Below are positions 16,607-57,111 of a stretch of 64,000 bases of DNA, piece after piece; the first letter of the stretch is position 1; every line of letters starts with the position of its first letter. The notes beneath the pieces are model-generated. The model saw only the letters and a list, made by a program, of their open reading frames with translations. It was not told the origin of the DNA and searched no databases. The stretch comes from a candidate division WOR-3 bacterium. Lineage in GTDB: Bacteria > Hydrothermota > Tepidihabitantia > Tepidihabitantales > Tepidihabitantaceae. Location: NCBI GenBank assembly GCA_024653355.1, contig JANLFQ010000003.1, positions 124,001-188,000 on the forward strand, in the 5' to 3' direction. A program made the translations under genes and the position numbers.

Positions 16607-16635
16607 ATGTTAAGGAAGGCAAACGCTGAAGTCAA
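16607..16635 (-). promoter_or_regulatory. Promoter of the nitroreductase gene (leaderless)
   Basis: On the minus strand TTGACT (16635-16630), 17-nt spacer, TAACAT (16612-16607), ending 7 nt before ATG 16599. Its position decides the start codon. Confidence 0.55.
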
Positions 16636-16724
16636 TGAGAACACAGCACCCGAGGCCAGCAAGAGTTAGATAGATTAGAAGTACGGCGGCGGCGTGGTCT
16701 GACTTTTGGCGACGATGCCGATTC

Positions 16725-16752
16725 TTGTCTTTTGTTTCATCAAGGATATACT
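16725..16752 (+). promoter_or_regulatory. Promoter of polA (leaderless)
   Basis: TTGTCT at 16725-16730, 16-nt spacer, TATACT at 16747-16752, then 8 nt to the GTG start at 16761. No Shine-Dalgarno sequence is present. Confidence 0.65.
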
Positions 16753-16760
16753 GATGAGTT

Positions 16761-19265
16761 GTGAAACGGCTTGTCCTGATCGATGGTCATTCGGTGTTGT
16801 ACCGGAGTTTTTTTGCTTTTATCCGGAATCCGTTGCGAAATTCCCGGGGCGAAAATACCTCAGCACCGTTTGGGTTTGCCAATACCATCCGCAAGGTGAT
16901 TAAAGAGTTGAAACCGGACTTTTGTGCGGTTGTTTTTGATGCGCCGGGGAAAACCTTCCGGGAGGAACTTTTTGCCGATTACAAGGCGCAGCGGCCTAAA
17001 GTTCCGGACGAACTGAAAGCCTCAATTCCTGTGGTTAAGGAGATGGTACAGGCGTGGGGGGTTAAAGTTTTTGAGGTGCCGGGGGTGGAGGCGGATGATG
17101 TTATTGGCACGCTCGCCGAGCAGGGCAAAAGTGAGGGAATAGAGGTTGTCGTCGTAAGTTCGGATAAAGATATGCTTCAGTTGGTGACGGAAGGAGTTAA
17201 GGTCTACGACCCGTGGAAGGAGTTTTTTTTCACTCCGGTGGAGGTCAAGGAGAAACTGGGTGTGAATCCCGAACAGGTACCCGAATTTTTAGCCCTTGCC
17301 GGTGATACGGTTGACAATATTCCGGGTGTACCGGGAATCGGACCGAAACGGGCACTCGATATCTTATTAAAGTACGGCGGATTGGAAGAAGCACTAAAGC
17401 GGGATGAGCGGTTGAAGGGTTATCAGGATGTGATAAAGACAAGTAAACAACTGGCGGTTATCAAACGGGATGCACCGATCGCAGTGCGCTGGGACGATTT
17501 GAGGATAAAGGATGTAGACCGCGAAAGACTGATGGAGATTTATCGCCGTCTCGAGTTTAGTTCTCTTCTGAAGGAGTTGGCGATTGATGAAGGCGCCAAC
17601 GAAGAGGGGTTTAAAGATTTGAAAGTTGTTGAGTTTGGTTTCAGGGAACTGGAACAAATTTTTGGCGAGGGAGTTTTGGGGGTGTATTACGAACGGGATA
17701 AGGGGCTCTGGATTTACGGCCGTAACGAAACGGCGCTGTGCGTGCCGATGCAGGAGATAGAATTGTTGTTGCGATTGAGTAGGTCGAAAGGTGCAATCTA
17801 TGCCGGGTTCGAGATGAAGCAGGTTGTGAAAGAGCTGATGAAGATGGGTATTGATGAGTGGACAGATATTTTTGATGTGGGTGTGGGTGCGTGGCTTGTG
17901 GACCCAAATCGGAAACGGTTCGAGTTGAGTGATGTGAGTGCCCAGATTTTGGGGCGTGCGTTCCGGGCTGAGGGCGGAGCAGAAAAGGCGGCACTGGCTT
18001 ATCAGATTTATCGGGCGCTACTACCGCAAATCCAGGCGCTGGGTTTAGAACCGGTTGCCCAAAAACTAGAGATGCCGCTGATTTTTGTGCTTGCCCGGAT
18101 GGAGCGTCGGGGGGTCAAGATTGACATAAAGTTCCTTGCCGAACTGGAGGATGAGCTGGTTGCAGAACAGAACAGGGTCGAGAAAAAGATTCACGACTGC
18201 GCGGGGGTCGTATTTAATGTTGGTTCCCCGAAACAGTTAGCGCAGGTTCTTTTCGAACGGTTGAAACTGCCCCGGGGCAGGCGAACCAAAACCGGCTACT
18301 CTACCAGTTCTGATGTTCTCATCGAACTGGTTGATGCACATCCAATTGTTAAGGAGGTTTTGCGTTATCGGGAACTGGACAAATTAATCTCTACCTATCT
18401 TAAACCCCTGCGGGAAGTGGCAGAGAAAAGCACCCAGCGGGTATACACCAATTTTAACCAGACGGGAACAAGTACTGGTCGGCTGTCCAGTTCCGAGCCC
18501 AATTTGCAAAATATTCCGATTCGGGGTGAACTGGGAAGGAAGGTGCGGCGGGCGTTTATTGCTGATGATGGGATGGTGTTAATCTCCGCCGATTACTCTC
18601 AAATTGAGTTGCGAATTCTGGCACATTTTACTGAAGATGAACGCTTGATTGAACTGTTTGAACAGGGGAAGGATATTCACGCCGCAACGGCAGCGGCGAT
18701 TCTTCGTATACCGCTCGATGCGGTAACCGAGGAACATCGTCGGATTGCAAAGATGGTAAACTATGGAATTATATATGGGATGGGGGATTGGGGTCTTTCG
18801 TCACGGATGGATATTCCGGTTGAACAGGCGCGGGCGTTTATTGAAGAGTATTACCGTAATTTCCCCGGTGTAGCGAAGTGGCGGGAGCGGGCGTTTGCCG
18901 AGGCGAGGTCTCAGGGGTTTGTGCGCACAATTGCCGGCCGCATCAGACCGGTGCCCGGAGTGATGAGTTCAGACCGGCAAACGGTTGAGGCGGCACAACG
19001 AGCGGCGCTAAACGCTCCGATGCAGGGGTCAGCAGCCGATATTATGAAGAAAGCGATGATTGCCATTGACCAACGGATGCGGGAGCAAGGTTTTAAGGGG
19101 GGAATTGTTATTCAGATTCACGACGAACTGGTTGTCGAAGTGGAGGAGGCGCGGGTTGATGAAGCAAAAGAGATTGTGAAGGGAGAGATGGAGGGTGCCT
19201 GGCGGCTGCGGGTACCGCTGGTTGTGGAATTGGGGGTTGGGCAGAATTGGGGGGAGGCGCATTAA
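16761..19265 (+). CDS. polA: DNA polymerase I
   Basis: An 834-residue family A polymerase. Residues of about 1-270 are the 5'-3' exonuclease/flap domain (VDNIPGVPGIGPKRA at about 188-202). The middle region (about 290-430) occupies the place of the 3'-5' proofreading domain but lacks the DxE metal-binding motif and looks degenerate, as in Taq and Bacillus-type enzymes. The polymerase domain has motif A ISADYSQIELR (about 611-621), motif B RRIAKMVNYGIIYG (about 661-674) and motif C QIHDELVVE. In motif B the position equivalent to E. coli Phe762 / Taq Phe667 is Tyr668. The GTG start follows a promoter by 8 nt, so translation is probably leaderless. It roles in gap filling and Okazaki fragment maturation. 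wecB begins immediately after its stop. Confidence 0.97.
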   Translation: MKRLVLIDGHSVLYRSFFAFIRNPLRNSRGENTSAPFGFANTIRKVIKELKPDFCAVVFDAPGKTFREELFADYKAQRPKVPDELKASIPVVKEMVQAWGVKVFEVPGVEADDVIGTLAEQGKSEGIEVVVVSSDKDMLQLVTEGVKVYDPWKEFFFTPVEVKEKLGVNPEQVPEFLALAGDTVDNIPGVPGIGPKRALDILLKYGGLEEALKRDERLKGYQDVIKTSKQLAVIKRDAPIAVRWDDLRIKDVDRERLMEIYRRLEFSSLLKELAIDEGANEEGFKDLKVVEFGFRELEQIFGEGVLGVYYERDKGLWIYGRNETALCVPMQEIELLLRLSRSKGAIYAGFEMKQVVKELMKMGIDEWTDIFDVGVGAWLVDPNRKRFELSDVSAQILGRAFRAEGGAEKAALAYQIYRALLPQIQALGLEPVAQKLEMPLIFVLARMERRGVKIDIKFLAELEDELVAEQNRVEKKIHDCAGVVFNVGSPKQLAQVLFERLKLPRGRRTKTGYSTSSDVLIELVDAHPIVKEVLRYRELDKLISTYLKPLREVAEKSTQRVYTNFNQTGTSTGRLSSSEPNLQNIPIRGELGRKVRRAFIADDGMVLISADYSQIELRILAHFTEDERLIELFEQGKDIHAATAAAILRIPLDAVTEEHRRIAKMVNYGIIYGMGDWGLSSRMDIPVEQARAFIEEYYRNFPGVAKWRERAFAEARSQGFVRTIAGRIRPVPGVMSSDRQTVEAAQRAALNAPMQGSAADIMKKAMIAIDQRMREQGFKGGIVIQIHDELVVEVEEARVDEAKEIVKGEMEGAWRLRVPLVVELGVGQNWGEAH

Positions 19266-20381
19266 ATGGGACCGCATAAGGTGCTTTTTGTGTTCGGGAC
19301 CAGGCCGGAAGCGATTAAAATGGCACCGGTGATACAGGAGTTAAAAAGGTTCAAAAGTTTATTCCGAACATCGGTGGTGGTTACGGCACAACACCGGGAG
19401 ATACTTGACCGGGTTCTGAAAATTTTTGGTATCAAACCCGATTACGACCTCGGTGTAATGAAAGAAAATCAGAGTCTAACCGATGTGACGGTGCGGGTGT
19501 TGCGACGGCTGGAGCCGGTTTTAAGGAAGGAAAGACCTGATTTGGTGATGGTTCAGGGCGATGCCACAAGTGCATTTGCCGCGGCACTTGCCGCTTATTA
19601 TCAGAAAATACCGGTTGGCCACATCGAGGCGGGATTGCGTACCCGGGACAAGTATGCTCCGTTTCCTGAAGAGGTTAATCGGCGATTTATTACCACGGTT
19701 GCTGATTTCCATTTCGCCCCAACCGAGTGGGCACGGGAAAATCTTTTACAGGAAGGGGTTGACCCGCACCGTATCTATGTAACGGGCAATACGGTGATTG
19801 ATGCCCTGTACTGGATTCGAAAAAAGCAAAAACGGAAGAGCCAGCGGGAAAGCAAACTACGGGTTTTACTCCTGACATTGCATCGGCGGGAGAGTTTTGG
19901 GAAGCCTTTGATGGCAATATGTCGGGCGATTTTGGCGTTAATAAAGCGGAATCCGGACATTGAAGTAATTTATCCGGTTCACCCCAACCCTAATGTTCGG
20001 CAACCAGTTAAGGCGCTATTAGGGGGAAGGGAAAGAATTCATTTGGTGGCACCGCTGGACTATCCAGATTTTGTGCGTGTTCTGGAGCGTTGTTACCTCG
20101 TGCTCACCGATTCCGGCGGTGTTACCGAGGAAGCACCTGCCCTTGGCAAACCGGTGCTGATATTAAGAGAAAAAACGGAAAGGCCTGAGGCGGTTAGGGC
20201 TGGAGTTGCAAAACTGGTCGGAATCGAGCCGAAAACGGTCGTTAATGAAACAGAGAGATTGTTGCGTCACCCGCTTGCCTATCGGCGGATGCAGGGAAAG
20301 GGTAGCCCGTATGGCGATGGCAAGGCAGCCCAAAGAATACGAAGGTTGCTTTTAAAGGTGTTGCCACAGGTTGACAAGTAA
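19266..20381 (+). CDS. wecB: UDP-N-acetylglucosamine 2-epimerase (non-hydrolysing)
   Basis: A 371-residue cytosolic enzyme. The start VLFVFGTRPEAIKMAPV is the family signature, followed by TAQHREILD (about 40-48), QGDATSAFA (about 96-104), GHIEAGLRT (about 118-126), FPEEVNRR (about 133-140) and the C-terminal DSGGVTEEAPALGKP (about 280-294). It interconverts UDP-GlcNAc and UDP-ManNAc, supplying ManNAc for surface polysaccharides. The ATG directly follows the polA stop codon, and GGGGAGG within the polA 3' end is its ribosome-binding site, so it depends on polA transcription. The polysaccharide-export genes begin 24 nt downstream under their own promoter, which fits its role at the head of that cluster. 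Confidence 0.95.
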   Translation: MGPHKVLFVFGTRPEAIKMAPVIQELKRFKSLFRTSVVVTAQHREILDRVLKIFGIKPDYDLGVMKENQSLTDVTVRVLRRLEPVLRKERPDLVMVQGDATSAFAAALAAYYQKIPVGHIEAGLRTRDKYAPFPEEVNRRFITTVADFHFAPTEWARENLLQEGVDPHRIYVTGNTVIDALYWIRKKQKRKSQRESKLRVLLLTLHRRESFGKPLMAICRAILALIKRNPDIEVIYPVHPNPNVRQPVKALLGGRERIHLVAPLDYPDFVRVLERCYLVLTDSGGVTEEAPALGKPVLILREKTERPEAVRAGVAKLVGIEPKTVVNETERLLRHPLAYRRMQGKGSPYGDGKAAQRIRRLLLKVLPQVDK

Positions 20382-20398
20382 ACCTCTTTTCTTACACT
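20371..20398 (+). promoter_or_regulatory. Promoter of the Wzz-flippase-ligase unit (leaderless)
   Basis: TTGACA at 20371-20376, 16-nt spacer, TACACT at 20393-20398, only 6 nt before the GTG start at 20405. The -35 overlaps the last wecB codons. Confidence 0.7.
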
Positions 20399-20404
20399 TC
20401 ATCT

Positions 20405-24557: not shown

Positions 24558-25593
24558 GCCGGGCGGTGTTCTCCCAGGTAAATTGGCGGGCGCGTTGTTG
24601 TCCGACCGCACTCAATCTGGTTCTAAGTTCGGCATTATCCAGCAGGAGTTGAATTTTGGTGGCGATGTCTTCTATCGAGAGAGGATTAAAATAGACCGCG
24701 GCGCCGTCAGCCACCTCAGGTAAACTGGAGGTGTTGCTGCACGCAATCGGTGCGCCATACGCCATTGCCTCCAAAACCGGTAGTCCGAACCCTTCGTACA
24801 GCGAAGCGGTTACAAACAAAGTACAGTATCGATACAGGCTGGCAAGCTCAGTTTCGTCCAGTCCACTGAAGACAAACGCCCGGGACAACAGGTTGAACCG
24901 TCTCAACTGAGTGTGAGCGAAATCGAGCTGGTGTTGCGTGTCCCCGCCGACAAGTACAAGTTTCAACGAAGGTGGGGCTTTGAGTTGAGCGAAGGCGGCG
25001 ATCAACCGCCGAGTATTTTTATACGGGGCATGACTGCCAACATAGAGGATAAATGGCACAAACTGTTTACCGAATTCCGATTCGGTTATCGATGGAGTGA
25101 TGCCTGGTCCGTTGTGAGCGACGAAGATCCGGCTGGTAGGTAACAGTTTCATTTTCCCCAAGTCTTTTTTGGTGGCTTCTGATACGGTAACAATCCGCCA
25201 GGCAAAACGGAGGCTCTGAAAACCAAGCCAGAAGGAAAGTTTTTCCTTCTGGGGGAGGAATTGACGCATTTTGAAAGGAATCAAGTCGTGGACCACGGCA
25301 ATGGTTGGCAATCGGGGAAAGATGGGAACCACTGGTGTGGGGCAAAACAGGATGTCGTACTCGTTTGTGCAGTACTGGTTGAGGGCGGTTAGTGTCCAGA
25401 TTGTGCGGTCGAGGTTGGAGCGGACCAATTCCGGCAGTTTGACCGTTTTTCCAAAAGATGAAAACATTTCCGGATCCGGGGTCAGGATAGTAAGGTCACA
25501 AATTCGGGCGAGTTCGGGTATCAGGTGTTTGATGTAACTGGAGATGCCTACTTTTAACCGGGTGTTAAAAGCGGCGTTGAATAGTATCTTCAT
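24529..25593 (-). CDS. GT4-type glycosyltransferase, paralogue A
   Basis: A 354-residue cytosolic enzyme with the two-domain GT-B layout. The C-terminal nucleotide-sugar domain holds the GT4 motif [14 protein letters not shown] (E-x7-E) and NTSSLPEVADGAA. The N-terminus MKILFNAAFNTRLKVGISS is closely similar to the gene at 27978-29096, and both share the ILTPDPE motif near 55, showing they are paralogues. Donor and acceptor sugars are unknown; the setting implies assembly of a surface polysaccharide. Its ATG overlaps the stop of the upstream glycosyltransferase by 4 nt (ATGA). The 3' end overlaps the convergent ligase gene by 29 nt. Confidence 0.9.
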   Translation of the reverse strand: MKILFNAAFNTRLKVGISSYIKHLIPELARICDLTILTPDPEMFSSFGKTVKLPELVRSNLDRTIWTLTALNQYCTNEYDILFCPTPVVPIFPRLPTIAVVHDLIPFKMRQFLPQKEKLSFWLGFQSLRFAWRIVTVSEATKKDLGKMKLLPTSRIFVAHNGPGITPSITESEFGKQFVPFILYVGSHAPYKNTRRLIAAFAQLKAPPSLKLVLVGGDTQHQLDFAHTQLRRFNLLSRAFVFSGLDETELASLYRYCTLFVTASLYEGFGLPVLEAMAYGAPIACSNTSSLPEVADGAAVYFNPLSIEDIATKIQLLLDNAELRTRLSAVGQQRARQFTWENTARLILRYAQRH

Positions 25594-26759
25594 AGGGTAT
25601 TTTTTTCACCGAACAAGCAATTCCAGAGGAGGTTTTCTACCCGGATGATATTCTTCCGGGCGTCGTAATGTTCTTCAGCGATAGAACGGCAGTTTTGAGA
25701 AAGGTAGGTGCGTAGTTTCTCATCGGATAGCACCCTGATGATTGCATTAGCCAACGCCTCCGGGTTTCGTTCGGGCACGAGGATTGCTGTTAAGCCATCA
25801 CTCATAAATTCAGGTATCGAGCCACTCCGGGTTGAGATTACTGGTGTTCCGCACGCGATGCTCTGAATATTCACCATTCCGACCTGTTCGGCACAGCGCT
25901 GGGTGGTGATTGAGGGGGTAACAGTAACCCGGGCGGCGCGGAAATAAGGTGGTAAGTGTTGATTTAAAATCATACCCAGGAGGTGGATGGAATCGGTGAT
26001 GTTTTTGGTATTAGCGATTTGGGTTATCTTTTCTTTTAATGGCCCATCACCGATTATAAAAAGCTGGGCATCTGGTATCTGCTCTTTTACTTTGACAAAT
26101 GCCTCAAGCAGGACAATAATGCCCTTCTGTTCAACTAACCGCCCAACAAATAAAATGGCGTTAGCACCCATATCGGGTTCATTGCCGTCGGTCCGGGGAG
26201 TAAAAAGTTCTGTGTCCACTCCCCAAGTGGCATAAAGTAATTTGCTGATTTTCCCTTCGGGGCATTTTAAAGATGCCATATTTTTTCTTGCCCCTTCATT
26301 AACGGCAAATATCAAGGTTGCTCGCTGGGCATAGATTCGGGCAACCGATTTTACGAAGGGGATTAAGAGCGGGCTCAAGGGGATGCCAAACCGATAAATT
26401 CGAGCAAACTTTATCTCGGGCGGGATGTTTTCAAATGTGGGGAAATAATAAGGAACGCCCAGAATTAAACTGCCAATGATAGTTGCAAAAATCAATGGTA
26501 TCTGAGTGGGAAAGTCGTAAGGTTCGCCGCCCTGAATCAGTGCCGGTTTTAACTTGATCAGTTTCAGCAGGAGGTCGATTGAGTTACGGAAATGCACGGT
26601 TCTGCCCCCCAATTCATCAGGAGAAATGTCCGGGGCACAACGCTGGTAAAGATGCCAGACCTCAAATCTTTTAAAATGAGACAACATATTATGGAAATCG
26701 GCGCGGAGTACATTGGTTAATATCGCCAGGCGCGGCTTAAAGCCGGGGGATGAAATCAT
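25590..26759 (-). CDS. GT4-type glycosyltransferase
   Basis: A 389-residue GT-B enzyme. The acceptor-side N-domain is followed by a C-domain with LFVGRLVEQKGI (about 210-221), a IIGDGPLKEKI motif (about 244-254), and the GT4 signature in QVGMVNIQSIACGTPVIST (about 306-324), where the first Glu of E-x7-E is replaced around VNIQS. It also carries two hydrophobic stretches near 90-135, suggesting membrane association. It is more distant from the other glycosyltransferases here. The ATG at 26759 lies 12 nt after a -10 box (26772-26777), so the leader is at most a few nucleotides. It overlaps the next gene (paralogue A) by 4 nt. Confidence 0.87.
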   Translation of the reverse strand: MISSPGFKPRLAILTNVLRADFHNMLSHFKRFEVWHLYQRCAPDISPDELGGRTVHFRNSIDLLLKLIKLKPALIQGGEPYDFPTQIPLIFATIIGSLILGVPYYFPTFENIPPEIKFARIYRFGIPLSPLLIPFVKSVARIYAQRATLIFAVNEGARKNMASLKCPEGKISKLLYATWGVDTELFTPRTDGNEPDMGANAILFVGRLVEQKGIIVLLEAFVKVKEQIPDAQLFIIGDGPLKEKITQIANTKNITDSIHLLGMILNQHLPPYFRAARVTVTPSITTQRCAEQVGMVNIQSIACGTPVISTRSGSIPEFMSDGLTAILVPERNPEALANAIIRVLSDEKLRTYLSQNCRSIAEEHYDARKNIIRVENLLWNCLFGEKNTL

Positions 26760-26771
26760 GGGTTGACAAGA

Positions 26772-26799
26772 ATAATAACCGTATTGCCGGCGATGTCAA
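26772..26799 (-). promoter_or_regulatory. Promoter of the minus-strand glycosyltransferase pair
   Basis: On the minus strand TTGACA (26799-26794), 16-nt spacer, TATTAT (26777-26772), 12 nt before ATG 26759. It is arranged back to back with the promoter at 26814-26841. Confidence 0.7.
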
Positions 26800-26813
26800 T
26801 TATCATTTTGAGT

Positions 26814-26841
26814 TTGACGCTCTAATTTTTTGTTTTATACT
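26814..26841 (+). promoter_or_regulatory. Promoter of the plus-strand glycosyltransferase
   Basis: TTGACG at 26814-26819, 16-nt spacer, TATACT at 26836-26841, 12 nt before ATG 26854. The two divergent -35 boxes are 14 nt apart. Confidence 0.65.
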
Positions 26842-26853
26842 TCTGCGACGATA

Positions 26854-27975
26854 ATGCGTATCGGCATTGACGGATTTCCTTACATATTTAAGGGGGCGGG
26901 CGTCGCCCGTTATGTGACCGCGATGCTGAATGAGATGGTTGTTCTGGCACCCGAAGACGAATTTTTCATCTATGCGCCGATGCCGGTGGAGATACCGCTT
27001 CTACCTGCGGCTAACTGGCGGTTGCGGGTGGTGAAAAGCGTGCTTTCCCAAAGGCCCACGCTCTGGACGCAAATTGTGTTGCCTAAAGCGCTGGCAGCAG
27101 ACGGCATCGATGTTTTCTGGGCACAACCCACCTACTTACCGCTGGCGGCAAAATGTTTTCGGATATTGACCGTACACGACCTGGTTCCCTATGTGGCACC
27201 GTGGAGTATGGAATTACGATGTCTATTGCAGATGAGAATGCGGCTCGGGCGAATTGCACGGGCGGCGGAACTGGTTGTGTGTGTTTCCGATGCTACGGCA
27301 AAACTTGCCCAGCGTTACTTGAAACTGAACCCCGAAAAAATTAGGGTGATAAAGGAAGCCGCGGCACCGGTTTTTTATCCGATTGAACTTTCGGAAGCAA
27401 AGCGGTTGGTAGCCGAGCGGTTTGGCATCGATGGCGATTACATAATTTTCGTCTCAACGATTGAGCCGAGAAAGGACCATTTACTTTTATTAAAAGCTCT
27501 GGAGATGGTGCCTGATGCACCTTTACTCGTTCTGGTGGGGGGCATTGGCTGGCGCTGCGGTAGAATTTTAAAAGAAATCAGACGTTTTGAGAAGGAGGGT
27601 CGGGTGCGTTACCTGGGAAGGGTTGATGATGAACAGTTGCGGCTACTTTACAGCGGTGCCCGGCTTGCGGTTTATCCTTCCCGTTACGAGGGTTTCGGTT
27701 TGCCGGTTCTTGAGGCGATGGCGTGCGGCTGTCCGGTACTGGCAAGCGACTCTTCCAGTTTGCCAGAAGTGGGTGGTGAGGCAGCGGTCTATTTCCGCAC
27801 CGGTGATGCCTTTGAGCTTGCACGGAAACTACGGGATTTACTTCACGATGAAGAGCGGTTGAGGTTAATGGCGCGGCAAGGAGTGCAGCGTGCCCAGCAG
27901 TTCAGTTTCAAAAAATCGGCTCGGGAGTTTTTGGAAATAATTAAAAAAGAAGTTACTAAATTTTATTCTTCCTAA
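26854..27975 (+). CDS. GT4-type glycosyltransferase
   Basis: A 373-residue GT-B enzyme. It opens with MRIGIDGFPYIFKGAGVARY, where the Gly-rich loop after strand 1 is typical of GT4 acceptor domains. The C-domain has VSTIEPRKDHLLLLKAL (about 213-229), LVGGIGWR (about 235-242) and the signature [18 protein letters not shown] (E-x7-E). The IEPRKDH motif places it in the mannosyl/rhamnosyl-type GT4 group, but the sugar cannot be assigned. The open frame reaches 26830, yet a promoter whose -10 is at 26836-26841 makes ATG 26854 the start, with a leader of about 5 nt. Its stop is 2 nt from the convergent stop of the next gene. Confidence 0.9.
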   Translation: MRIGIDGFPYIFKGAGVARYVTAMLNEMVVLAPEDEFFIYAPMPVEIPLLPAANWRLRVVKSVLSQRPTLWTQIVLPKALAADGIDVFWAQPTYLPLAAKCFRILTVHDLVPYVAPWSMELRCLLQMRMRLGRIARAAELVVCVSDATAKLAQRYLKLNPEKIRVIKEAAAPVFYPIELSEAKRLVAERFGIDGDYIIFVSTIEPRKDHLLLLKALEMVPDAPLLVLVGGIGWRCGRILKEIRRFEKEGRVRYLGRVDDEQLRLLYSGARLAVYPSRYEGFGLPVLEAMACGCPVLASDSSSLPEVGGEAAVYFRTGDAFELARKLRDLLHDEERLRLMARQGVQRAQQFSFKKSAREFLEIIKKEVTKFYSS

Positions 27976-27977
27976 AC

Positions 27978-29096
27978 TCAGCGCTTTTCTATTACCGTTT
28001 GGAAAAATTGGTGTAGCTTCTTTGCGGTATTTTCCCAGGAAAAGAGATTTGTGCGCGACAATCCTCTAACTTTTAACGAGGCACAAAGGTTGTCGTCCGT
28101 GAGTACCTGTTGCAGGGTTCGGGCGATGTCGTCAACCGAATACGGATTAAAGTATAGCGCGGCATCACCAGCGACTTCGGGAAGACTTGATGTGTTGCTA
28201 CAAACCACGGGAGCACCGTTTGCCATCGCCTCTAACACCGGTAAACCGAACCCTTCATAAAGTGATGGGTAAACAAATAGCCGGCAGCGTTGATAGAGGC
28301 GGGACAACTGAACCGGGGTTAAGGTATTGGGCAGGATGAGTACCCGGTCTTTCAAGTGATGGGCGGCGATAGCTTCCCGGGTGCGATTGATAAGCGGCGG
28401 TGTTCCCCAGCCGACAAGCACCATTTGCAGTGTTGGAAACCGGTGGGCGATTTGGGCAAATGCGGCGATTAGACGCGGAATGTTTTTGTGCGGTGCGTGT
28501 CCGCCCACATACAGCAGGTAATCAGTTGAAGGTTGCGGCAAATCATCAGGCACAGTTTCTGCTTCGGTTGCCACCGGGTTTACACAGGGTGCTATGGGGA
28601 TTGCGGCGAGTGCCCGGGAGTTCAATGCCGGGAATTTTGTAACTAAATCCTGTCGCGTCTTCTCTGAGATGGTAACTATTCCGTCCGCGCTGCGCAGGGA
28701 TTGGATTCCTATCCAGAGGAGTAGTTTTTTCCGGTGATAAATCGTTGCCTTTTTTTCTTCTCGTTCAAAGGACAATAAAGGGATGAGGTCATAAACGGTG
28801 GCAACAGCGGGGATTTTTTTGTGTATTGGAGTGGCTGGGATAGAACTGAAAACCAGATCGTAGGGAGATGTGCAGAGTTTGGGAAGTTGGAAAAAAGTCC
28901 ACAATAGGCTATTTCGTGGCACCCTCACCCTTTCCGATATTTTAATCGTTTCACCGTAATGGGAAAACAGTTCTGGGTCCGGGGTCAGGATGGTAAGTTC
29001 ACATAATTTGGCAAGCTGGGGGACAAGCGACTTAATAAACCCGCTGATTCCTGAATTCTCTTTGGTATCGAAGGCGGCGTTAAAAAGAATTTTCAC
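27978..29096 (-). CDS. GT4-type glycosyltransferase, paralogue B
   Basis: A 372-residue GT-B enzyme paralogous to the protein at 24529-25593: both begin MKILFNAAF, share ILTPDPE near residue 55, VYDLIP/VHDLIP near 120, and a matching C-domain with VGGHAPHKN (about 220-228) and [18 protein letters not shown] (E-x7-E). The start is GTG at 29096 with its own promoter (29104-29131) 7 nt upstream, so translation is likely leaderless. It ends 2 nt from the convergent upstream glycosyltransferase. Expected to add one sugar of the surface glycan; donor unknown. Confidence 0.9.
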   Translation of the reverse strand: MKILFNAAFDTKENSGISGFIKSLVPQLAKLCELTILTPDPELFSHYGETIKISERVRVPRNSLLWTFFQLPKLCTSPYDLVFSSIPATPIHKKIPAVATVYDLIPLLSFEREEKKATIYHRKKLLLWIGIQSLRSADGIVTISEKTRQDLVTKFPALNSRALAAIPIAPCVNPVATEAETVPDDLPQPSTDYLLYVGGHAPHKNIPRLIAAFAQIAHRFPTLQMVLVGWGTPPLINRTREAIAAHHLKDRVLILPNTLTPVQLSRLYQRCRLFVYPSLYEGFGLPVLEAMANGAPVVCSNTSSLPEVAGDAALYFNPYSVDDIARTLQQVLTDDNLCASLKVRGLSRTNLFSWENTAKKLHQFFQTVIEKR

Positions 29097-29103
29097 CGAG
29101 TTC

Positions 29104-29131
29104 AGTATATTGATTGACCAGGGATGGTCAA
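29104..29131 (-). promoter_or_regulatory. Promoter of glycosyltransferase paralogue B (leaderless)
   Basis: On the minus strand TTGACC (29131-29126), 16-nt spacer, TATACT (29109-29104), 7 nt before GTG 29096. It diverges from the promoter at 29152-29179. Confidence 0.65.
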
Positions 29132-29151
29132 GTGTACAGTACCCCTTTACA

Positions 29152-29179
29152 TTGACTGTAGTTACGAGCCGGTTATAAT
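29152..29179 (+). promoter_or_regulatory. Promoter of the GT4-GT2 unit (leaderless)
   Basis: TTGACT at 29152-29157, 16-nt spacer, TATAAT at 29174-29179, 9 nt before ATG 29189. No Shine-Dalgarno sequence. Confidence 0.75.
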
Positions 29180-29188
29180 TCGAGAACT

Positions 29189-30337
29189 ATGCCCAAACTC
29201 GCAATCGACGCACGACGACTGGTGCGCCGAATGTCCGGTATTGGCCATTATGTTTTTCAAATCGCCCGATGGGTGGCGCGACTGGCACCAGATTTTGAGG
29301 TCAACTTACTCTTGGACCGCGCGCCATCGAAGGAGGCAATTCCTCCGGGCTGTAATGCGGTGGTTTTGGGAAGTTATCTGGGCGACGGGACACCATTGGC
29401 TAAGTTGTATTCACCATTCTGGTTAAATCGCTATGTGCCTTTTTATTGCAACCGGGCAAGGGTAGACCTATTTCATGGCGCAAATTTCGTCTTACCCTTT
29501 CGGCTAAATTGCAAAAAGGTGGCAACGGTTCATGACATCTCTTTTATCCGAATTCCGTATGCCTACGGGCCAATCTATCGCCGTTATATGGTAATGCAGA
29601 CCAAAAGGTCTTTGGACACTGCGGATGCGGTGATTGCGATAAGTGAAAAGACGCGGGAGGACCTGATAACAGCGTTCCGGGTAAAACCGGAACAGATTAC
29701 GGCGATTCCCATTGGCATCGGCGATGCGTTCCGAAACGATTACGACCATGACTATTTAATTAAGGTCCGCGCCCAATTGGCGCTTCCGGAAAGGTACATC
29801 CTCCATGTTGGTGTTGTCGAGGTAAAAAAGAATATCGGGCTGTTACTTCAGGCGGCGGCACCGCTGATTAAAAATGGTCTGGTTGATGGTGTTGTCCTTG
29901 CCGGTCGTGATGGATTGGGTGCCGATGAAATCCGGCGGTTGGCAAAGGAGCTGGGATTAGCCAACCAAGCGCATTTTTTAGGATTTGTTCCCCAGGAGTT
30001 GCTCCCCGGTGTCTATATAATGGCAAAGGTGGTGGTTTTCCCTTCTCTTTACGAGGGTTTTGGGCTGCCGGTTCTTGAGGCGATGGCGTGCGGCACACCG
30101 GTTATCACCTCCAACATCTCATCATTGCCCGAGGTTGCGGGTGATGCGGCACTGTTGGTTTCACCGAACAACCCGGAAGAGTTAAGACAGGCGCTGGAGC
30201 GGGTGTTAAAGGACGAGGGGTTGTGTGCTTCTTTGCGGGTGAAGGGGTTAAAGCGGGTTCAGGAGTTTACCTGGGAGAAGATAGCGGCGAAGCATATTGA
30301 AGTCTATCGCCGGGTTCTAAGGGGCGGTGATGTTTGA
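29189..30337 (+). CDS. GT4-type glycosyltransferase
   Basis: A 382-residue GT-B enzyme. The N-domain starts [19 protein letters not shown] with a glycine loop, then [10 protein letters not shown] (about 111-120). The C-domain carries [18 protein letters not shown] (about 205-222), a loop at about 290 and the signature [18 protein letters not shown] with E-x7-E. It resembles WbnK/mannosyltransferase-type GT4 enzymes; the sugar cannot be assigned. The ATG follows a -10 box by 9 nt, implying a leaderless mRNA. Its end overlaps the start of the GT2 gene by 8-11 nt, so the two are one unit. Confidence 0.9.
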
Positions 30338-31487
30338 GCCATTGGCGGTTGTCCTTTTCTGGGTCCCATTAGGGGTTATTTTTTATCACTGGGTGATTTT
30401 TCCGGCGCTACTCTGGATATGGGCAAAACTCTTTCCAAGAAAGTATCATTTTGAAAAACGGGATGAGCCGCTGCGGGTGAGCGTGGTGATGGCGGTTTAC
30501 AACGAAGAGGCGATAATCGCGGAAAAGATGAAAAATATCCTGGCGATGGAATATCCGGCTGATTATCTCGAAATCCTTATCGGGTCGGACAACTCCACCG
30601 ACCGCACCGACGAAATCATCCGCTCGTTCAACGACCCGCGGGTGCGCTTGATTCATTATGACGAGCAGTCCGGGAAGACGGTGGTGCAGAATCGGCTCTT
30701 GGAGATTGCCACAGGCGATGTTGTGCTCTGCACCGATGCCGACTCCCTGCTCACGCCGGAGGCGCTTAAACTGATGGTGGAAAAATTTCTTGACCCGAGA
30801 GTGGGTGTGGTCAATCCGAAGTATCGACGCGTCAATGAAGATGGTAGTCCGGCAGAAAGTTTTTACGACCTCTGGGAGAGTAAGGTAAAAGAACTGGAAG
30901 GCAAGATTGGAGCGATGGTTGGCTGTAACGCCTATGCCAATATGGTGCGCAGGTCCCTGGCAACCCCGATTCCGGACGACACCATCCTTGACGACTTTAT
31001 CCTGGGAATCAGGCCTTTCCGGTTCGGATACGATGTGGTGTGTGAACCCCGGGCACTGGTTGTTACCCGGGCGGAGAGCGAAACAGTTGAATACCGGCGC
31101 AAATCAAGGATATCAAGCGGCAACCTCCAGGCGCTATTGCGCTGTTATGACCTGCTTTCCCCGAAGTACGGCCGGAAAGCCTGGGTTTACTTTTCCCATA
31201 AGGTCATAAGGATGATGGTGCCATTTCTGCTCCTCGCGATGCTAATCGGTGCGGGATTACATTTCAGATATCCATTTTTTGCGGTACTGTTTGGGCTGCA
31301 ACTGCTTGCTTATGCCACGATTCCGCTTCTGTTTGTAGTTCCCCGACGGTGGCGCAAACTTCTGATAATACAATACTACCTTTATCTCAATATCGGTCTG
31401 GTTATCGGTTACTGGCGCTACCTGTTCCGGCGGGAGCGATTCTGGAAGAAGACGCCGCGCACCGCACCACCACCTGAATTAAGTTGA
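30330..31487 (+). CDS. Membrane-bound GT2-family glycosyltransferase
   Basis: A 385-residue protein. An N-terminal transmembrane segment (about 5-33) is followed by a GT2 catalytic domain with VVMAVYNEEAIIAEKM (about 51-66), a IGSDNSTDRT motif (about 84-93), the DxD-like TDADS (about 135-139), and a DDFILG/ED-type region (about 210-216), then an RRKSRISSGNLQ motif (about 255-266) like the Q/RxxRW region of processive GT2 enzymes. Two or three transmembrane helices close the protein (about 295-375). It could act as a polymer-forming or lipid-linked sugar transferase. The start is ATG 30330 (GTG 30327 precedes it) with AAGGGG upstream inside the previous gene. The -35 of the pdxJ promoter overlaps its stop codon. 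Confidence 0.88.
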   Translation: MFEPLAVVLFWVPLGVIFYHWVIFPALLWIWAKLFPRKYHFEKRDEPLRVSVVMAVYNEEAIIAEKMKNILAMEYPADYLEILIGSDNSTDRTDEIIRSFNDPRVRLIHYDEQSGKTVVQNRLLEIATGDVVLCTDADSLLTPEALKLMVEKFLDPRVGVVNPKYRRVNEDGSPAESFYDLWESKVKELEGKIGAMVGCNAYANMVRRSLATPIPDDTILDDFILGIRPFRFGYDVVCEPRALVVTRAESETVEYRRKSRISSGNLQALLRCYDLLSPKYGRKAWVYFSHKVIRMMVPFLLLAMLIGAGLHFRYPFFAVLFGLQLLAYATIPLLFVVPRRWRKLLIIQYYLYLNIGLVIGYWRYLFRRERFWKKTPRTAPPPELS

Positions 31488-31512
31488 CAAAGGGCATAGG
31501 GTTTTCTAAAAT
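31484..31512 (+). promoter_or_regulatory. Promoter of the pdxJ-secD-secF-pgpA operon (leaderless)
   Basis: TTGACA at 31484-31489 (overlapping the upstream stop codon), 17-nt spacer, TAAAAT at 31507-31512, 8 nt before the TTG start of pdxJ. Confidence 0.72.
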
Positions 31513-31520: not shown

Positions 31521-32237
31521 TTGAGAACGCTATCTGTTAATATCGACCACATTGCAACGCTGCGGCAGGCACGGCAGGAGCCATTTCCTGACCCGGTTCA
31601 GGCGGCAGCGCTGGTTGAATTAGGCGGCGCCGATGGTATTACGGTCCATCTGCGGCAGGACCGGCGGCATATAAACGACCGGGATGTGAAACTTCTGCGT
31701 CAGACGATAAAGACGGAACTCACCGTGGAGATGGCGGCAAAACCGGATTTAATACGGTTTGCCTGCAAAGTGAAACCGGACCAGGTAACTTTGGTCCCGG
31801 AGCTGGTGACCGAGGTTACGACAACCAGGGGTCTGGATGTAGTTAAGGAGGCAAAGCGGTTGCGGCAAGTGGTTGTATTACTAAAACGTGCCGGTATCAG
31901 GGTCAGTTTATTTGTCGACCCGGAGCCCCGGCAGGTGGTTGCGGCAGCCAAAATCGGGGCGCAGGTTGTAGAGTTGAATACCGACCGTTACAGTAAAGAG
32001 CCCGGGCACAGGGAGTTTCGTCTTCAGGAGTTGGAAACTGCCGCCCAGACCGCAATCCAGCACGGGTTAACGGTTCATGTAGGCCATGGGTTGGATTACC
32101 AGAATGTTGTGCCAATTCTGCAAGGGAATTGGGCGCAGGGGTTTTCCATCGGTTTTGCAATTGTGAGCCGGGCGGTGTTTGTGGGCCTGAAACAGGCGGT
32201 TAGAGATATGAAGCATTTACTGGAGGTGTACGCTTGA
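31521..32237 (+). CDS. pdxJ: Pyridoxine 5'-phosphate synthase
   Basis: A 238-residue TIM-barrel enzyme that condenses 1-deoxyxylulose 5-phosphate with 3-amino-2-oxopropyl phosphate in DXP-dependent vitamin B6 synthesis. Family signatures: LSVNIDHIATLRQAR at the N-terminus, GADGITVHLRQDRRHI (about 36-51), ELTVEMAA (about 66-73), KPDQVTLVPE (about 84-93) and GHGLDYQNV (about 192-200). Length is normal for the family. The start is TTG at 31521, fixed by homology and lying 8 nt after the -10 box, so the mRNA is probably leaderless. Its stop overlaps the TTG of secD in the 4-nt TTGA arrangement. Confidence 0.96.
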   Translation: MRTLSVNIDHIATLRQARQEPFPDPVQAAALVELGGADGITVHLRQDRRHINDRDVKLLRQTIKTELTVEMAAKPDLIRFACKVKPDQVTLVPELVTEVTTTRGLDVVKEAKRLRQVVVLLKRAGIRVSLFVDPEPRQVVAAAKIGAQVVELNTDRYSKEPGHREFRLQELETAAQTAIQHGLTVHVGHGLDYQNVVPILQGNWAQGFSIGFAIVSRAVFVGLKQAVRDMKHLLEVYA

Positions 32238-33901
32238 GAGGCACGAGAATTAAACTTGCAATCTGGCTTGTGGTATTAGTTATCGCCGGAGTGATTCTCT
32301 GGCCCAGTTTTCAACTTTATGTACTGTTTCCGAAGCAGGAGAAGGCGTTAAAAGCGCGGTTAAGCAAGGCAGCGACATTTGAGGACAGTCAGGCGGTGCG
32401 AATGGAAATCAACGAGTTCAATCAGCGGAAAGGCGCGCTTTATGAGAAACGGATTGTCCATCTCGGACTGGACCTGGTGGGTGGTATGCATGTGGTTCTT
32501 GATGTTGACCGTTCCCAGCTTTCCGAAGAGGATGCAAGACGAGCCCCGGATTTGGCGCTGGAGGTTATCCGAAACCGAATCGACCAGTTCGGGGTGTTTG
32601 AGCCGACAATTCAAAAGACTGACCGGGGAAGAATTCTTGTGCAACTGCCCGGGGTTGACCGGGAGCGCGCGCTCAACATCATAAAACAACCGGCACACCT
32701 GACATTTCACCTGGTTGAAGAGAAGGCAAAGGTTTACGATGCTTTGAAGACGGTGGATGAACGCCTTCAGGCAAAAGCCGGGGTAAAACCGACAGTGGAT
32801 TCTACCGTTACTCAGCCTTTGGACTCAACCGAAAAAGAGGCGGCGCCGGGAACGCTTTTGAGTTTTCTGCGCAGCGAGGGTGATGAACTGGACCTTTTGA
32901 TTTACGCCAAGGACACCGCGGCGTTCAGAACGCTGCTTGAACAGGGAAGGGAGTTCTGGCCCCAGGGCTACGAGTTTGCTTTCGGTCCTGTGGAGACGGT
33001 GGACAATGACCGGGTGGTGCGCATCTATCTTTTGAAGAGTGAACCGGAACTTATCGGAACGAGGTTGCGCCGGGCTGAACCGGCAATTTATCAGGGCGCA
33101 GAACTGGAACGGGCGAACACCTGGGTGGTGAACTTTGAACTCGACCGCGAAGGCGCGGCAAAGTTTGCAACAGTTACTGGCAGAAATGTGGGCAGAAGGC
33201 TGGCAATCGTACTGGATGGCGTGGTTCGCTCCGCCCCGCGGATTCAAGAGCGGATTCCCAACGGTCGGGGTCAGATAACAATGTACGACCGCCGGGGTGA
33301 TAAGGCAAAAGACCTTTCAATTGTCTTGAACTCTGGTGCCCTGCCCGCACCGGTGGTGGTTGTAGAAGAGCGCTCAATCGGCGCTTCCCTGGGCGCAGAT
33401 GCGATTCGGCGAGGTTTGATTGCCGCCGCGGTTGGTGCGCTGGTGGTGGTGCTTTTTATGCTCCTGTACTACGGTATTGGTGGATTGTTAGCGGACTTCG
33501 CCCTTGTTGTGAACATCTTTCTCCTTCTTGCGGTTCTTGCCGCACTGCGCGCGACTCTTACTTTACCCGGGCTTGCTGGTATCGCTTTGACAATCGGGAT
33601 GGCGGTTGATGCCAATGTCCTGGTTTTTGAACGTATCCGGGAGGAGTTGCGGGCAGGAAAGACGCCGATGGCAGCGGTTGATACCGGTTATGACCGGGCG
33701 CTGGTGACAATCATTGACGCCAACGCCACGACGATTATCACCGCGCTGGCGCTGTACTTTATCGGCTCGGGCCCGGTGCGGGGGTTTGCCATCACGCTCG
33801 GGGTCGGGTTGGTGATTAACGTGCTGACCGCGGTTTTCCTGACGAGGTTCATCTTTGACTGGTTCCTTGCGCAGTTTGAAGTCAAAACACTGAGGATATA
33901 A
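32234..33901 (+). CDS. secD: Protein translocase accessory subunit SecD
   Basis: A 555-residue inner-membrane protein. A first transmembrane helix (about 8-28) is followed by the periplasmic P1 region with GLDLVGGMHVVLDVD (about 76-90) and the RNRIDQFGVFEPTIQ segment, a linker with extra residues (about 165-215), then five more helices at the C-terminus including GMAVDANVLVFERIREEL (about 454-471), the hallmark of the RND-type SecD. SecDF uses the proton motive force to pull exported proteins across the membrane. The start is TTG overlapping the pdxJ stop. secF begins 2 nt after its stop. Confidence 0.97.
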   Translation: MRGTRIKLAIWLVVLVIAGVILWPSFQLYVLFPKQEKALKARLSKAATFEDSQAVRMEINEFNQRKGALYEKRIVHLGLDLVGGMHVVLDVDRSQLSEEDARRAPDLALEVIRNRIDQFGVFEPTIQKTDRGRILVQLPGVDRERALNIIKQPAHLTFHLVEEKAKVYDALKTVDERLQAKAGVKPTVDSTVTQPLDSTEKEAAPGTLLSFLRSEGDELDLLIYAKDTAAFRTLLEQGREFWPQGYEFAFGPVETVDNDRVVRIYLLKSEPELIGTRLRRAEPAIYQGAELERANTWVVNFELDREGAAKFATVTGRNVGRRLAIVLDGVVRSAPRIQERIPNGRGQITMYDRRGDKAKDLSIVLNSGALPAPVVVVEERSIGASLGADAIRRGLIAAAVGALVVVLFMLLYYGIGGLLADFALVVNIFLLLAVLAALRATLTLPGLAGIALTIGMAVDANVLVFERIREELRAGKTPMAAVDTGYDRALVTIIDANATTIITALALYFIGSGPVRGFAITLGVGLVINVLTAVFLTRFIFDWFLAQFEVKTLRI

Positions 33902-35300: not shown

Positions 35301-35328
35301 TTGACAGATTACGCCTGAATGGTATGAT
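35301..35328 (+). promoter_or_regulatory. Promoter of the STAND/TPR gene (leaderless)
   Basis: TTGACA at 35301-35306, 16-nt spacer, TATGAT at 35323-35328, 8 nt before ATG 35337. No Shine-Dalgarno sequence. Confidence 0.75.
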
Positions 35329-51790: not shown

Positions 51791-52582
51791 TTAACGGTGC
51801 AGATTTCTTTTCAGCCGTAATGCCGGTGCGGCGTTTAATCCCCGGGATTGGTCAAGAGAAACGGTCGTGTCAATGTACATTGTTGCCCGGATAAACGCCT
51901 CCTTTGCACCAATCGAGTCACCGATAAACTCGGCGGCAACGCCGAGGTTGTTCAGGATTGCGCCGGCTAAATCGGCAGGGGATGGTGTTAGAGTAGAAAG
52001 TGAGCGCTCTGCCAAGCGGTAATAGAAAAGGGCGCTTTCGGGATAAGAGTAGTACTGGAAGATGTAACCAGTGTTGAATGCCAGCCAGCCGGTGATACAG
52101 GATGCGGCGCGCCCGCTAAGGGCGTGTGTCAGTTCAAGACCTTTTTGAAATTCAACGAGCGCCGATTGAGGTTGCGCAAGTTCATTGTAGGAGAAACCGA
52201 TATATCCATAAACCACCGCCTGACCTATTGAGTCTTTTCTTAACTCTTTTTTCTGCAAGAGTTTTGTTAACCGGGCGATGGCGTCCCGCAACTCACGATT
52301 TTCAATCATAGTATCGATTGACACCAGCTGCCGGTTCAGTTCCGGGGAAAGGAAGGTGCGAACGGTGGTGTCAATGTACACCTTGCCCAGCATTCGGGTG
52401 TAAGCGCTGAGGTCTACTTTAGTCAATTCGGCTGTTTTTCGTCCGGGCTCACTTTTGGGTGGCTGGGAAAGAATCCGGCTGAGGAACAAAAGGATGACCA
52501 GGACAACAACACCGACCGTAACCCAGAGCCACAGATTGCGCAGCGAGAGCCCGGGGTTTGGCTTTTTGGGCTTTTTCGGCAC
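51791..52582 (-). CDS. Membrane-anchored TPR protein
   Basis: A 263-residue protein with a basic N-terminus (PKKPKKP) and one transmembrane helix (about 16-38), so it is likely anchored with the bulk in the periplasm or cytoplasm (a positive-inside reading favours a periplasmic C-terminus). The rest is helical and TPR-like: GYIGFSYNELAQPQSALVEF (about 127-146), then WLAFNTGYIFQYYSYPESALFYYR and AILNNLGVAAEFIGDSIGAK. No enzymatic motif. The start is GTG at 52582 with a promoter whose -10 is 5 nt upstream, so translation is leaderless. The stop lies 10 nt from the convergent priA stop. A scaffold or assembly role is possible; function unknown. Confidence 0.75.
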   Translation of the reverse strand: MPKKPKKPNPGLSLRNLWLWVTVGVVVLVILLFLSRILSQPPKSEPGRKTAELTKVDLSAYTRMLGKVYIDTTVRTFLSPELNRQLVSIDTMIENRELRDAIARLTKLLQKKELRKDSIGQAVVYGYIGFSYNELAQPQSALVEFQKGLELTHALSGRAASCITGWLAFNTGYIFQYYSYPESALFYYRLAERSLSTLTPSPADLAGAILNNLGVAAEFIGDSIGAKEAFIRATMYIDTTVSLDQSRGLNAAPALRLKRNLHR

Positions 52583-52587
52583 GCCGA

Positions 52588-52615
52588 ATTTTAATCTAAC
52601 TAACTTTTATGTCAA
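52588..52615 (-). promoter_or_regulatory. Promoter of the TPR protein (leaderless)
   Basis: On the minus strand a perfect TTGACA (52615-52610), 16-nt spacer, TAAAAT (52593-52588), just 5 nt before GTG 52582. Confidence 0.75.
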
Positions 52616-52958: not shown

Positions 52959-53079
52959 TCCCGGACACACTGGCAGAACCAATCCCTGAGTCGCTCCCCG
53001 AGCGGTTTCCTAAGACAGATAAGGACCGACTCAATGATTGAGTTACCCAACCCTTTTCCCTATTCTATCCGAAATAGGG
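52959..53079. repeat. Structured intergenic element, copy 3
   Basis: It includes the hairpin ACTCAA-TGA-TTGAGT (53029-53043) and CCCTATT/AATAGGG (53058-53064 and 53073-53079), and a GAGCGGTTTCC block. Its right part GAGTTACCCAACCCTTTTCC resembles the right arm of copy 1 (GAGCTACTTACCGAACCCTTTTCC in two parts), with similar CTAT-containing flanks. Relation to copies 1 and 2 is by these shared blocks. Confidence 0.4.
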
Positions 53080-53286
53080 TGATGGGTGATTTTAACATAG
53101 GTTTAGTATGCTAATTTACTGGTTTTTAACGGGTTAACATCACAGTCAGTATCTGTTGCCACCTAATCTTTTACCATTTCAACCGTTTGCTGTTTTTTCC
53201 CGGATTGTTGTCGGGGTTTTCTGACAAGAAGGATGGAGTCTGGAAATAACATCGGTATGATATTGTTTTTATAAAGTGCTGACCCC

Positions 53287-53315
53287 TTGACTTTTGGTAT
53301 ATTTTTCGGTATAAT
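53287..53315 (+). promoter_or_regulatory. Promoter of the nfnA-nfnB operon
   Basis: TTGACT at 53287-53292, 17-nt spacer, perfect TATAAT at 53310-53315. The predicted leader of about 70 nt ends in AAGGAGG before the TTG start; it is one of the few long Shine-Dalgarno leaders here. Confidence 0.75.
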
Positions 53316-53392
53316 GCCAATCAATTTACTGGTTATTTTAGTGAGAGCGAAAATAAGGAATAGTTTTTTGTTTTATCCCAAAGGAGGAATTT

Positions 53393-55643: not shown

Positions 55644-55754
55644 TAAAATGATTAAAATGACACCGGTCACCGGTTATCCGACACCAAACGATTTAAAGTT
55701 TAATATGATATCTTTTCAGGGTGGCCAGTCAGAGGTGTCAGGAGGTGTAGAAAA

Positions 55755-56702
55755 ATGAGTAGAAGCGACATTGTCCGCCGGTTACGGAAAAGGAAAATCG
55801 GCGTTCTGATGGGAGGCTGGTCGAGCGAAAGGGAGGTTTCGCTCCTTTCGGGCCAACGGGTTCTGGAATCTTTGAAAAGGCAGGGTTATCAGGCGGTCGG
55901 GATTGATATCAACCGGAGTTTTGTCGACCAGATACGCCAGGCAAAGATTGATATGGCGTTTGTCATACTCCATGGCCGGCCCGGTGAAGATGGAACGATG
56001 CAGGGTTTTTTAGAACTCCTGGGAATTCCCTATACCGGTTCCGGGGTTACCGCATCGGCGATTGCGATTGACAAAGTGTTCACGAAGATGCTTTTCCGAC
56101 AGATTGGTATCCCGACGCCGGATTTTGTAAGTGTTGGTAAGGATGATGATGTTGCTGAAGGGTTAGCCGCGGCGGAGAAACGTTTCGGGTATCCGATGAT
56201 TGCCAAACCGCGCTGCGAGGGTTCGAGCGTGGGAATTGAACTGCTCGAAGGGAAACGGGGCGCACTGGACCGATGCGAGCGGGTCTGGCGCGGTTTTAGT
56301 GAGATGCTCATCGAACCTTTTATCGATGGGATGATTGCCACGGTGGGGATAGTTGGTGACCAGGTGTTACCAATTCTCGAACTGGTTCCCAAACAGCAGA
56401 AGTTTTACAGTTATGAGGCAAAGTACATTCGGGGCGAAACCGATTTTATTGTACCGGCGCGGCTGAGCAGCCGGGTTGAGGCGAGAATTAAAGAATTGGC
56501 GATAAAGGCGTATCGCGAACTGGGTTGCAAAGGTTTCGCCCGCCTTGACTTAATTGTTAAGGACGGTCGCCAGCCTTACTTTCTTGAGGTGAATACCCTT
56601 CCTGGATTAACCGACATTTCCGACCTACCGGTGCAAGCCGAAGCGGCCGGAATTACTTATGACGACCTGATTTTCCGGATTCTGGCGGATGCCTTAGAGT
56701 GA
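55755..56702 (+). CDS. ddl: D-alanine-D-alanine ligase
   Basis: A 315-residue ATP-grasp enzyme that makes D-Ala-D-Ala for peptidoglycan. Signatures: GVLMGGWSSEREVSLLSG (about 16-33), HGRPGEDGTMQGFLELL (about 73-89), YTGSGVTASAIAIDK (about 93-107), AKPRCEGSSVGIE (about 149-161), and EVNTLPGLTDIS (about 284-295) with the Mg-binding Asn. Length is typical. The ATG is preceded by AGGAGGTG. Its context is unusual: it sits directly upstream of the ribosomal-protein operon that begins with rplR, separated by about 60 nt containing a promoter, instead of the usual murein cluster. Confidence 0.95.
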   Translation: MSRSDIVRRLRKRKIGVLMGGWSSEREVSLLSGQRVLESLKRQGYQAVGIDINRSFVDQIRQAKIDMAFVILHGRPGEDGTMQGFLELLGIPYTGSGVTASAIAIDKVFTKMLFRQIGIPTPDFVSVGKDDDVAEGLAAAEKRFGYPMIAKPRCEGSSVGIELLEGKRGALDRCERVWRGFSEMLIEPFIDGMIATVGIVGDQVLPILELVPKQQKFYSYEAKYIRGETDFIVPARLSSRVEARIKELAIKAYRELGCKGFARLDLIVKDGRQPYFLEVNTLPGLTDISDLPVQAEAAGITYDDLIFRILADALE

Positions 56703-56727
56703 CGGTAAACGATGGTGTTGGTATTTC

Positions 56728-56755
56728 TTGACTGAGAGTAATTTATGAATAAGAT
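56728..56755 (+). promoter_or_regulatory. Promoter of the shortened spc operon (leaderless rplR)
   Basis: TTGACT at 56728-56733, 16-nt spacer, TAAGAT at 56750-56755, 8 nt before ATG 56764 of rplR. Confidence 0.65.
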
Positions 56756-56763
56756 TGGTGATT

Positions 56764-57111
56764 ATGATTCGTGACCGAAAGTTAAGAAGGCATTTAAGTA
56801 TCCGGCACCGGATTTCCGGAACGCCGGAGCGACCCCGGTTGTGTGTTTTTCGGAGTAACCGGCATATGTATGCCCAGTTGATAGACGACACTACCGGTCG
56901 GGTGCTAACCGCGGTTTCCAGTTTAACTCCGGAGTTAAGAGACAAAAAAGGGAAACCCACTGAGATGGCGCTTGAGGTGGGTAAACTGGTTGCCGCAAAG
57001 GCGAAAGAACGGGGAATAACAAAAGTTGTTTTCGACCGCGCCGGTTATCGCTACCATGGCCGGGTGAAGGCGGTGGCTGAAGGAGCGCGCCAAGGAGGTC
57101 TGGAGTTTTGA
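56764..57111 (+). CDS. rplR: Large-subunit ribosomal protein L18
   Basis: A 115-residue protein with the L18 pattern [40 protein letters not shown] (read in two halves) and the C-terminal [23 protein letters not shown]18 binds 5S rRNA on the large subunit. The start ATG 56764 is fixed by homology and lies 8 nt after a -10 box, with no Shine-Dalgarno site, so it is leaderless; TTG 56755 in frame is an unlikely alternative. rplR is normally preceded by rplF (L6), which is absent here. The stop overlaps the TTG start of rpsE by 4 nt (TTGA). Confidence 0.96.

Follow-up and report, generated by a model that had tools for sequence, protein, structure and literature searches.

GeneMarkS-2 predicts leaderless transcription for 21.6% of bacterial species (PMC9581028). 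Where leaderless genes have been detected, they average 39% in Deinococcus-Thermus, 27% in Aquificae, 19% in Actinobacteria and 16% in delta-Proteobacteria, and a value of 13% is reported for Acidobacteria (PMC3160421). An earlier note on the DNA described here considered a division between leaderless first genes and internal genes led by a Shine-Dalgarno (SD) sequence to be unusual outside archaea, Deinococcus-Thermus and Actinobacteria, a list that these surveys show to be too short. In Deinococcus-Thermus, where leaderless transcription has recently been dissected (PMC12340547), a TANNNT motif lies a few nt before the start in about 30-40% of genes, and SD-led genes occur alongside (PMC12340547, PMC3160421), a picture similar to that in the candidate division WOR-3 bacterium we investigated. 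A -10 element adjacent to the open reading frame has been shown to drive leaderless mRNA in Deinococcus-Thermus. The two differ in that the -10 is often sufficient by itself in Deinococcus-Thermus, with the -35 merely enhancing, whereas WOR-3, which belongs to an unrelated phylum, has a clear TTGAC -35 box at a distance of 16-17 nt. Actinobacteria such as Mycobacterium (PMC3898074, PMC4633059) resemble WOR-3 in having about 20-25% leaderless genes, both ATG and GTG starts, and SD-led genes alongside. Archaea (Sulfolobus; cited in PMC3160421) also combine leaderless transcript heads with SD sequences within operons. Archaeal transcription, however, uses TATA/BRE elements, whereas WOR-3 has a bacterial sigma70 promoter and the arrangement is found in just about a third of its first genes. 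Actinobacterial -35 boxes are weak, in contrast to the strong -35 in WOR-3. A search that detected bS21 in the WOR-3 genome gave no member of this family in Corynebacterium glutamicum. The leaderless arrangement is thus already known from bacteria, and what is new here is the phylum: in the literature searched we found no earlier report of leaderless genes in WOR-3, Stahlbacteria or Caldifarciminota, and a search on leaderless genes, metagenome-assembled genomes and Shine-Dalgarno sequences likewise returned none.

The WOR-3 genome (G000; 1.88 Mb in six contigs, 98% complete) belongs to a lineage listed as phylum Caldifarciminota. Its PolA has its nearest match (52%) in a metagenome-assembled genome named candidate division WOR-3, and over 4980 bases that record is 100% identical to the polA locus of G018, a genome placed in the same order as G000. 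The window, that is, the whole stretch of 64,000 nucleotides that was analysed, corresponds to C3:124001-188000. The organism has outer-membrane genes of the BamA/TamB type and a protein with a TonB plug. The earlier note had listed twelve -35/-10 pairs in front of genes in the window, and all twelve are present on the strands and at the positions given below, each with an in-frame start codon. Their consensus is TTGACN or TTGTCT, a spacer of 16-17 nt, and TANNNT. The spacers are, as claimed, mostly 16 nt (10 of 12, with 17 nt for nitroreductase and pdxJ), and the gap between the end of the -10 and the start codon is 5-12 nt, within the 5-16 nt originally proposed. ATG, GTG and TTG all serve as starts, in seven, four (polA, Wzz, the glycosyltransferase at 27978-29096 and the putative TPR gene) and one (pdxJ) of the sites, respectively. 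Pfam agrees with the gene names that had been proposed; the exception is the supposed TPR gene (51791-52582), which matches no Pfam family at E 1e-5.

12268-12295, minus strand: TTGACA-N16-TATTAT, methyltransferase gene (11229-12257); ATG at 12257, gap 10; leaderless-type, same in the ortholog of same-genus G001
16607-16635, minus strand: TTGACT-N17-TAACAT, nitroreductase (ORF 16042-16599); ATG at 16599, gap 7; leaderless-type, kept in G001
16725-16752, plus strand: TTGTCT-N16-TATACT, polA; GTG at 16761, gap 8; leaderless-type, kept across genus, family, order and class
20371-20398, plus strand: TTGACA-N16-TACACT, Wzz; GTG at 20405, gap 6; predicted to be strictly leaderless
26772-26799, minus strand: TTGACA-N16-TATTAT, glycosyltransferase (25590-26759); ATG at 26759, gap 12
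26814-26841, plus strand: TTGACG-N16-TATACT, glycosyltransferase; ATG at 26854, gap 12
29104-29131, minus strand: TTGACC-N16-TATACT, glycosyltransferase (27978-29096); GTG at 29096, gap 7; leaderless-type
29152-29179, plus strand: TTGACT-N16-TATAAT, glycosyltransferase; ATG at 29189, gap 9; leaderless-type, kept in the G010 ortholog
31484-31512, plus strand: TTGACA-N17-TAAAAT, pdxJ; TTG at 31521, gap 8; leaderless-type, kept in the G010 ortholog, which starts with ATG
35301-35328, plus strand: TTGACA-N16-TATGAT, nSTAND-TPR gene; ATG at 35337, gap 8; leaderless-type
52588-52615, minus strand: TTGACA-N16-TAAAAT, gene 51791-52582 (TPR in the earlier note); GTG at 52582, gap 5; leaderless-type, kept in G001
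56728-56755, plus strand: TTGACT-N16-TAAGAT, rplR; ATG at 56764, gap 8; leaderless-type, heads rplR-rpsE-rplO-secY

For nitroreductase and rplR, the ORF already has an in-frame start codon upstream of the one that matches the promoter (16599 and 56764), and this earlier codon overlaps the promoter. Two of the intergenic regions separate divergent glycosyltransferase genes (26759-26854 and 29096-29189); only about 93 nt lie between the genes of each pair, and each gap holds two back-to-back leaderless-type promoters. The spc ribosomal operon is split in this genome: in the region 55755-59572, rplR-rpsE-rplO-secY follows a D-Ala-D-Ala ligase gene and has its own leaderless-type promoter, and rplF is found apart from it on another contig (G000:C1:540889-541374).

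The upstream regions in 824 kb of the genome (44% of the total, sampled as stretches) were scanned with the E. coli sigma70 matrix, a promoter model that is not host-derived. Genes were called with our own codon-pair coding model, which is blind to promoters and SD sequences and gives computationally predicted starts, and those with 30 nt or more of free sequence upstream were treated as first genes. A dinucleotide shuffle provided the chance level, and further controls came from the antisense strand, from internal genes and from other phyla. A promoter pair 4-12 nt before the start was found in 93 of 315 first genes (about 30%; of the sampled genes overall, about 15% are promoter-abutting), compared to 8.0 expected from the shuffle and 18 on the antisense strand; among internal genes there were 6 in 241, with 3.0 expected. 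With a stricter score the first genes of the sample show a sharp peak at gaps of 5-9 nt (72 matches vs 1.3 in shuffled sequence), the genome-wide peak in -10-to-start distance that the earlier note had named as its check. Overall the gaps range from 5 to 12 nt with a mode at 6-9. The base profiles correspond to TTGAC-N16-TANNNT with the sixth base of the -35 free, and the spacer is 16 nt in 58 and 17 nt in 24 of 89 promoter-abutting genes. A TTGACA-like -35, a TATAAT-like -10 and 16-18 nt spacing are the properties of sigma70-type promoters. The preferred spacer is 16 nt in the class to which the window belongs and 17 nt in the phylum's other classes and in the control phyla. The promoter-abutting type is most frequent where divergent genes are separated by a short region (16 of 24 cases at 50-99 nt and 23 of 44 at 100-199 nt), and it is rare where a co-directional gene lies less than 15 nt away (6 of 241).

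One could assume that these matches arose by chance in AT-rich upstream DNA, where TANNNT is common, or through a bias from picking starts after stop codons, as choosing the longest ORF favours a TAA or TAG just upstream. The controls refute this explanation, which has a negligible probability. The peak is absent from shuffles, the antisense strand and internal genes, and it persists when the longest ORF is taken as the gene start (63 vs 3.7). No gap peak was found by the same scan in samples from E. coli, Firmicutes, Proteobacteria or Chloroflexi; a Brevibacterium sample, with just 17 first genes and 1 TANNNT vs 0.2 expected, is too small to serve as a positive control. The -35 box provides independent evidence, as it emerges at the right spacing (16 nt) when sites are selected on TANNNT near the start alone (T.81, T.57, G.52, A.47, C.59). 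AT-richness does not explain the pattern, since the largest ratio over chance is seen in the 62% GC relative G003, with 21 promoter-abutting genes vs 0.4 expected; moreover, the arrangement is kept in orthologs (see below).

The 3' end of the 16S rRNA, GGATCACCTCCTTTCT, has an intact anti-SD. An SD motif is present in 6 of 93 promoter-abutting genes vs 94 of 222 other first genes (Fisher p 2e-11), and in the pooled WOR-3 sample in 12 of 241 vs 261 of 647. Internal genes have an SD in 44% of cases vs 14% expected, and in the SD-led groups (internal and other first genes) the motifs start at -12 to -8. In the window, SD-led internal genes stand behind leaderless-type heads:

19266-20381, plus strand: wecB-like gene directly behind polA; GGAGG 8 nt before ATG
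32234-33901, plus strand: secD, behind leaderless-type pdxJ; GGAGG 7 nt before TTG
57810-58271, plus strand: rplO, internal gene of the leaderless-headed rplR operon; GGAGG

The SD-led internal genes agree with the division between leaderless first and SD-led internal genes that had been proposed, but the division is not all-or-none: the leaderless type accounts for only about 30% of first genes, and 42% of the rest have an SD. Three features of the leaderless class in GeneMarkS-2 and of the TA-led genes of Zheng et al. 2011 are found in this genome: a -10 about 10 bp upstream in many genes, no SD in those genes, and SD-led genes coexisting with an intact anti-SD. As a reading of the sequence, the claim that leaderless or near-leaderless transcripts are predicted for many first genes, alongside SD-led genes, is supported. 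A Bacteroidetes-type mode of non-SD initiation, with an unused anti-SD and an AT-rich signal, was rejected, as there is a clear SD peak at -12 to -8. Loss of bS1, bS21 or IF3 does not account for the pattern either, since all three are encoded in the genome. A recoded TGA in infC was considered and rejected after a check in one relative, where the family match runs past the normal stop.

An alternative explanation is that starts were called too far upstream, and that the promoters are normal ones followed by a real 5' UTR, with the true starts located downstream behind an SD. The start calls are computational, and a few genes do have SD-preceded in-frame starts further down (e.g., rplR at 56839 and 56866). 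Nevertheless, this explanation is very unlikely, as an SD-preceded in-frame start within 30 codons downstream occurs in only 9 of 89 promoter-abutting genes vs 62 of 228 other first genes. The polA start is fixed by a conserved N-terminus, with the promoter abutting it across the class, and the Pfam matches for nitroreductase and L18 start no more than about 10 residues from the proposed N-termini.

The reading we prefer, with a probability of roughly 0.9 on the sequence features described above, is that sigma70-type promoters abutting start codons produce leaderless or very-short-leader mRNAs. Housekeeping-sigma (sigma70-type) promoters of the form TTGACN-16/17 nt-TANNNT would place the transcription start on the start codon itself or 1-6 nt ahead of it, if initiation occurs 6-8 nt past the -10, as for sigma70 in general. 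In sigma70 initiation, +1 lies about 7 nt after the -10, so that the mRNA would begin on the start codon at a gap of 6 and otherwise 1-6 nt before it. The resulting mRNAs would have either no leader or one that cannot accommodate an SD; with gaps of 4-12 nt, some of them would carry several nt of leader and not be strictly leaderless. Initiation may then depend on the 5' end, as described for leaderless mRNAs (PMC9031893), with 70S ribosomes, or 30S subunits together with IF2 and initiator tRNA, acting on the 5'-terminal start codon, and downstream genes on the same mRNA would use an SD.

If the very short leaders (3-8 nt) themselves mattered for initiation, then the mRNAs would not be leaderless and 5'-end-dependent initiation would not be involved. 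The broad distribution of gaps (5-12) fits this possibility, because a start 6-8 nt after the -10 would leave leaders of 1-6 nt in many genes. We regard it as unlikely: the mode of the gaps is at 6-9, GTG starts are concentrated at gap 6 (7 of 15), where +1 is predicted to fall on the start codon, and leaders this short cannot hold an SD at the -12 to -8 spacing of SD-led genes.

Comparison with relatives reveals that leaderless-type promoters are conserved gene by gene. In G001 (same genus) and G010 (same family), 17 of 18 genes keep the arrangement where the ortholog is also a first gene, compared with just 3 of 31 other first genes whose orthologs there are of this type. Over all sampled relatives the numbers are 38 of 48 vs 9 of 55 other first genes (p 9e-11, an optimistic value since the same gene may count several times across relatives). 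Within the genus and family, the polA promoter lies directly against the start in G000, G001, G002, G014, G006 and G010. The same holds for G021, from another family of the order, and for G028, G031, G093, G100, G104 and G035, from the class families f6 and f9. Spacers and start codons of polA have diverged among these genomes, and the arrangement persists at 44% protein identity. No start-abutting polA promoter was found in the remaining order and family members examined; in several of these, polA appears to follow another gene closely.

Whole genomes were searched with the strict pattern TTGAC-N17/18-TANNNT-N5-9-ATG, using the reversed pattern and a gap shifted to N25-29 as controls. The genome of the window has 143 matches vs 8 reversed, and 42 with the shifted gap, a count that includes genuine leadered promoters. 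At least a threefold excess over the reversed control is found in 52 of 60 phylum genomes, with totals over the 60 of 6866 near the start, 732 reversed and 2869 with the shifted gap. The signal is strongest in the class members G030 (368 vs 1 reversed) and G032 (328 vs 6). In five genomes from families f21 and f22 (G063-G066 and G069) the pattern is at control level. As the pattern is strong in most of the phylum, this suggests that the leaderless mode was lost in these families. For 25 genomes from other phyla, the strict pattern gives 556 matches in total and the reversed one 314. In eight genomes that carry the label Aminicenantes, Acidobacteria or uncultured bacterium (G125, G127 and G150-G155) the counts are 393 vs 45, about a ninefold enrichment, which makes a weaker form of leaderless genes likely there.

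A broader and more tentative interpretation, which we consider possible but rather doubtful, is that leaderless initiation is ancestral to WOR-3/Caldifarciminota and under gene-specific selection, with a fixed core set of genes, polA among them, in which promoter and start codon have stayed fused from the origin of the class or phylum onwards, as a distinct translation class that was lost in a few families. If this were the case, then the promoter-fused class could be regulated separately from SD-led genes.

The prediction of leaderless mRNAs is directly testable, as a cultured WOR-3 strain exists (sy37, NBRC 116057, genome AP038914; PMC12285271). Gene finders tuned to SD sequences likely misplace starts in WOR-3 genomes, as the cases of nitroreductase and rplR illustrate. 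With whole-genome counts for 60 genomes, the predicted occurrence of strong leaderless transcription is extended to a phylum known almost solely from metagenomes, and given the apparent losses in some families, gain and loss of the leaderless mode can be studied within one phylum.
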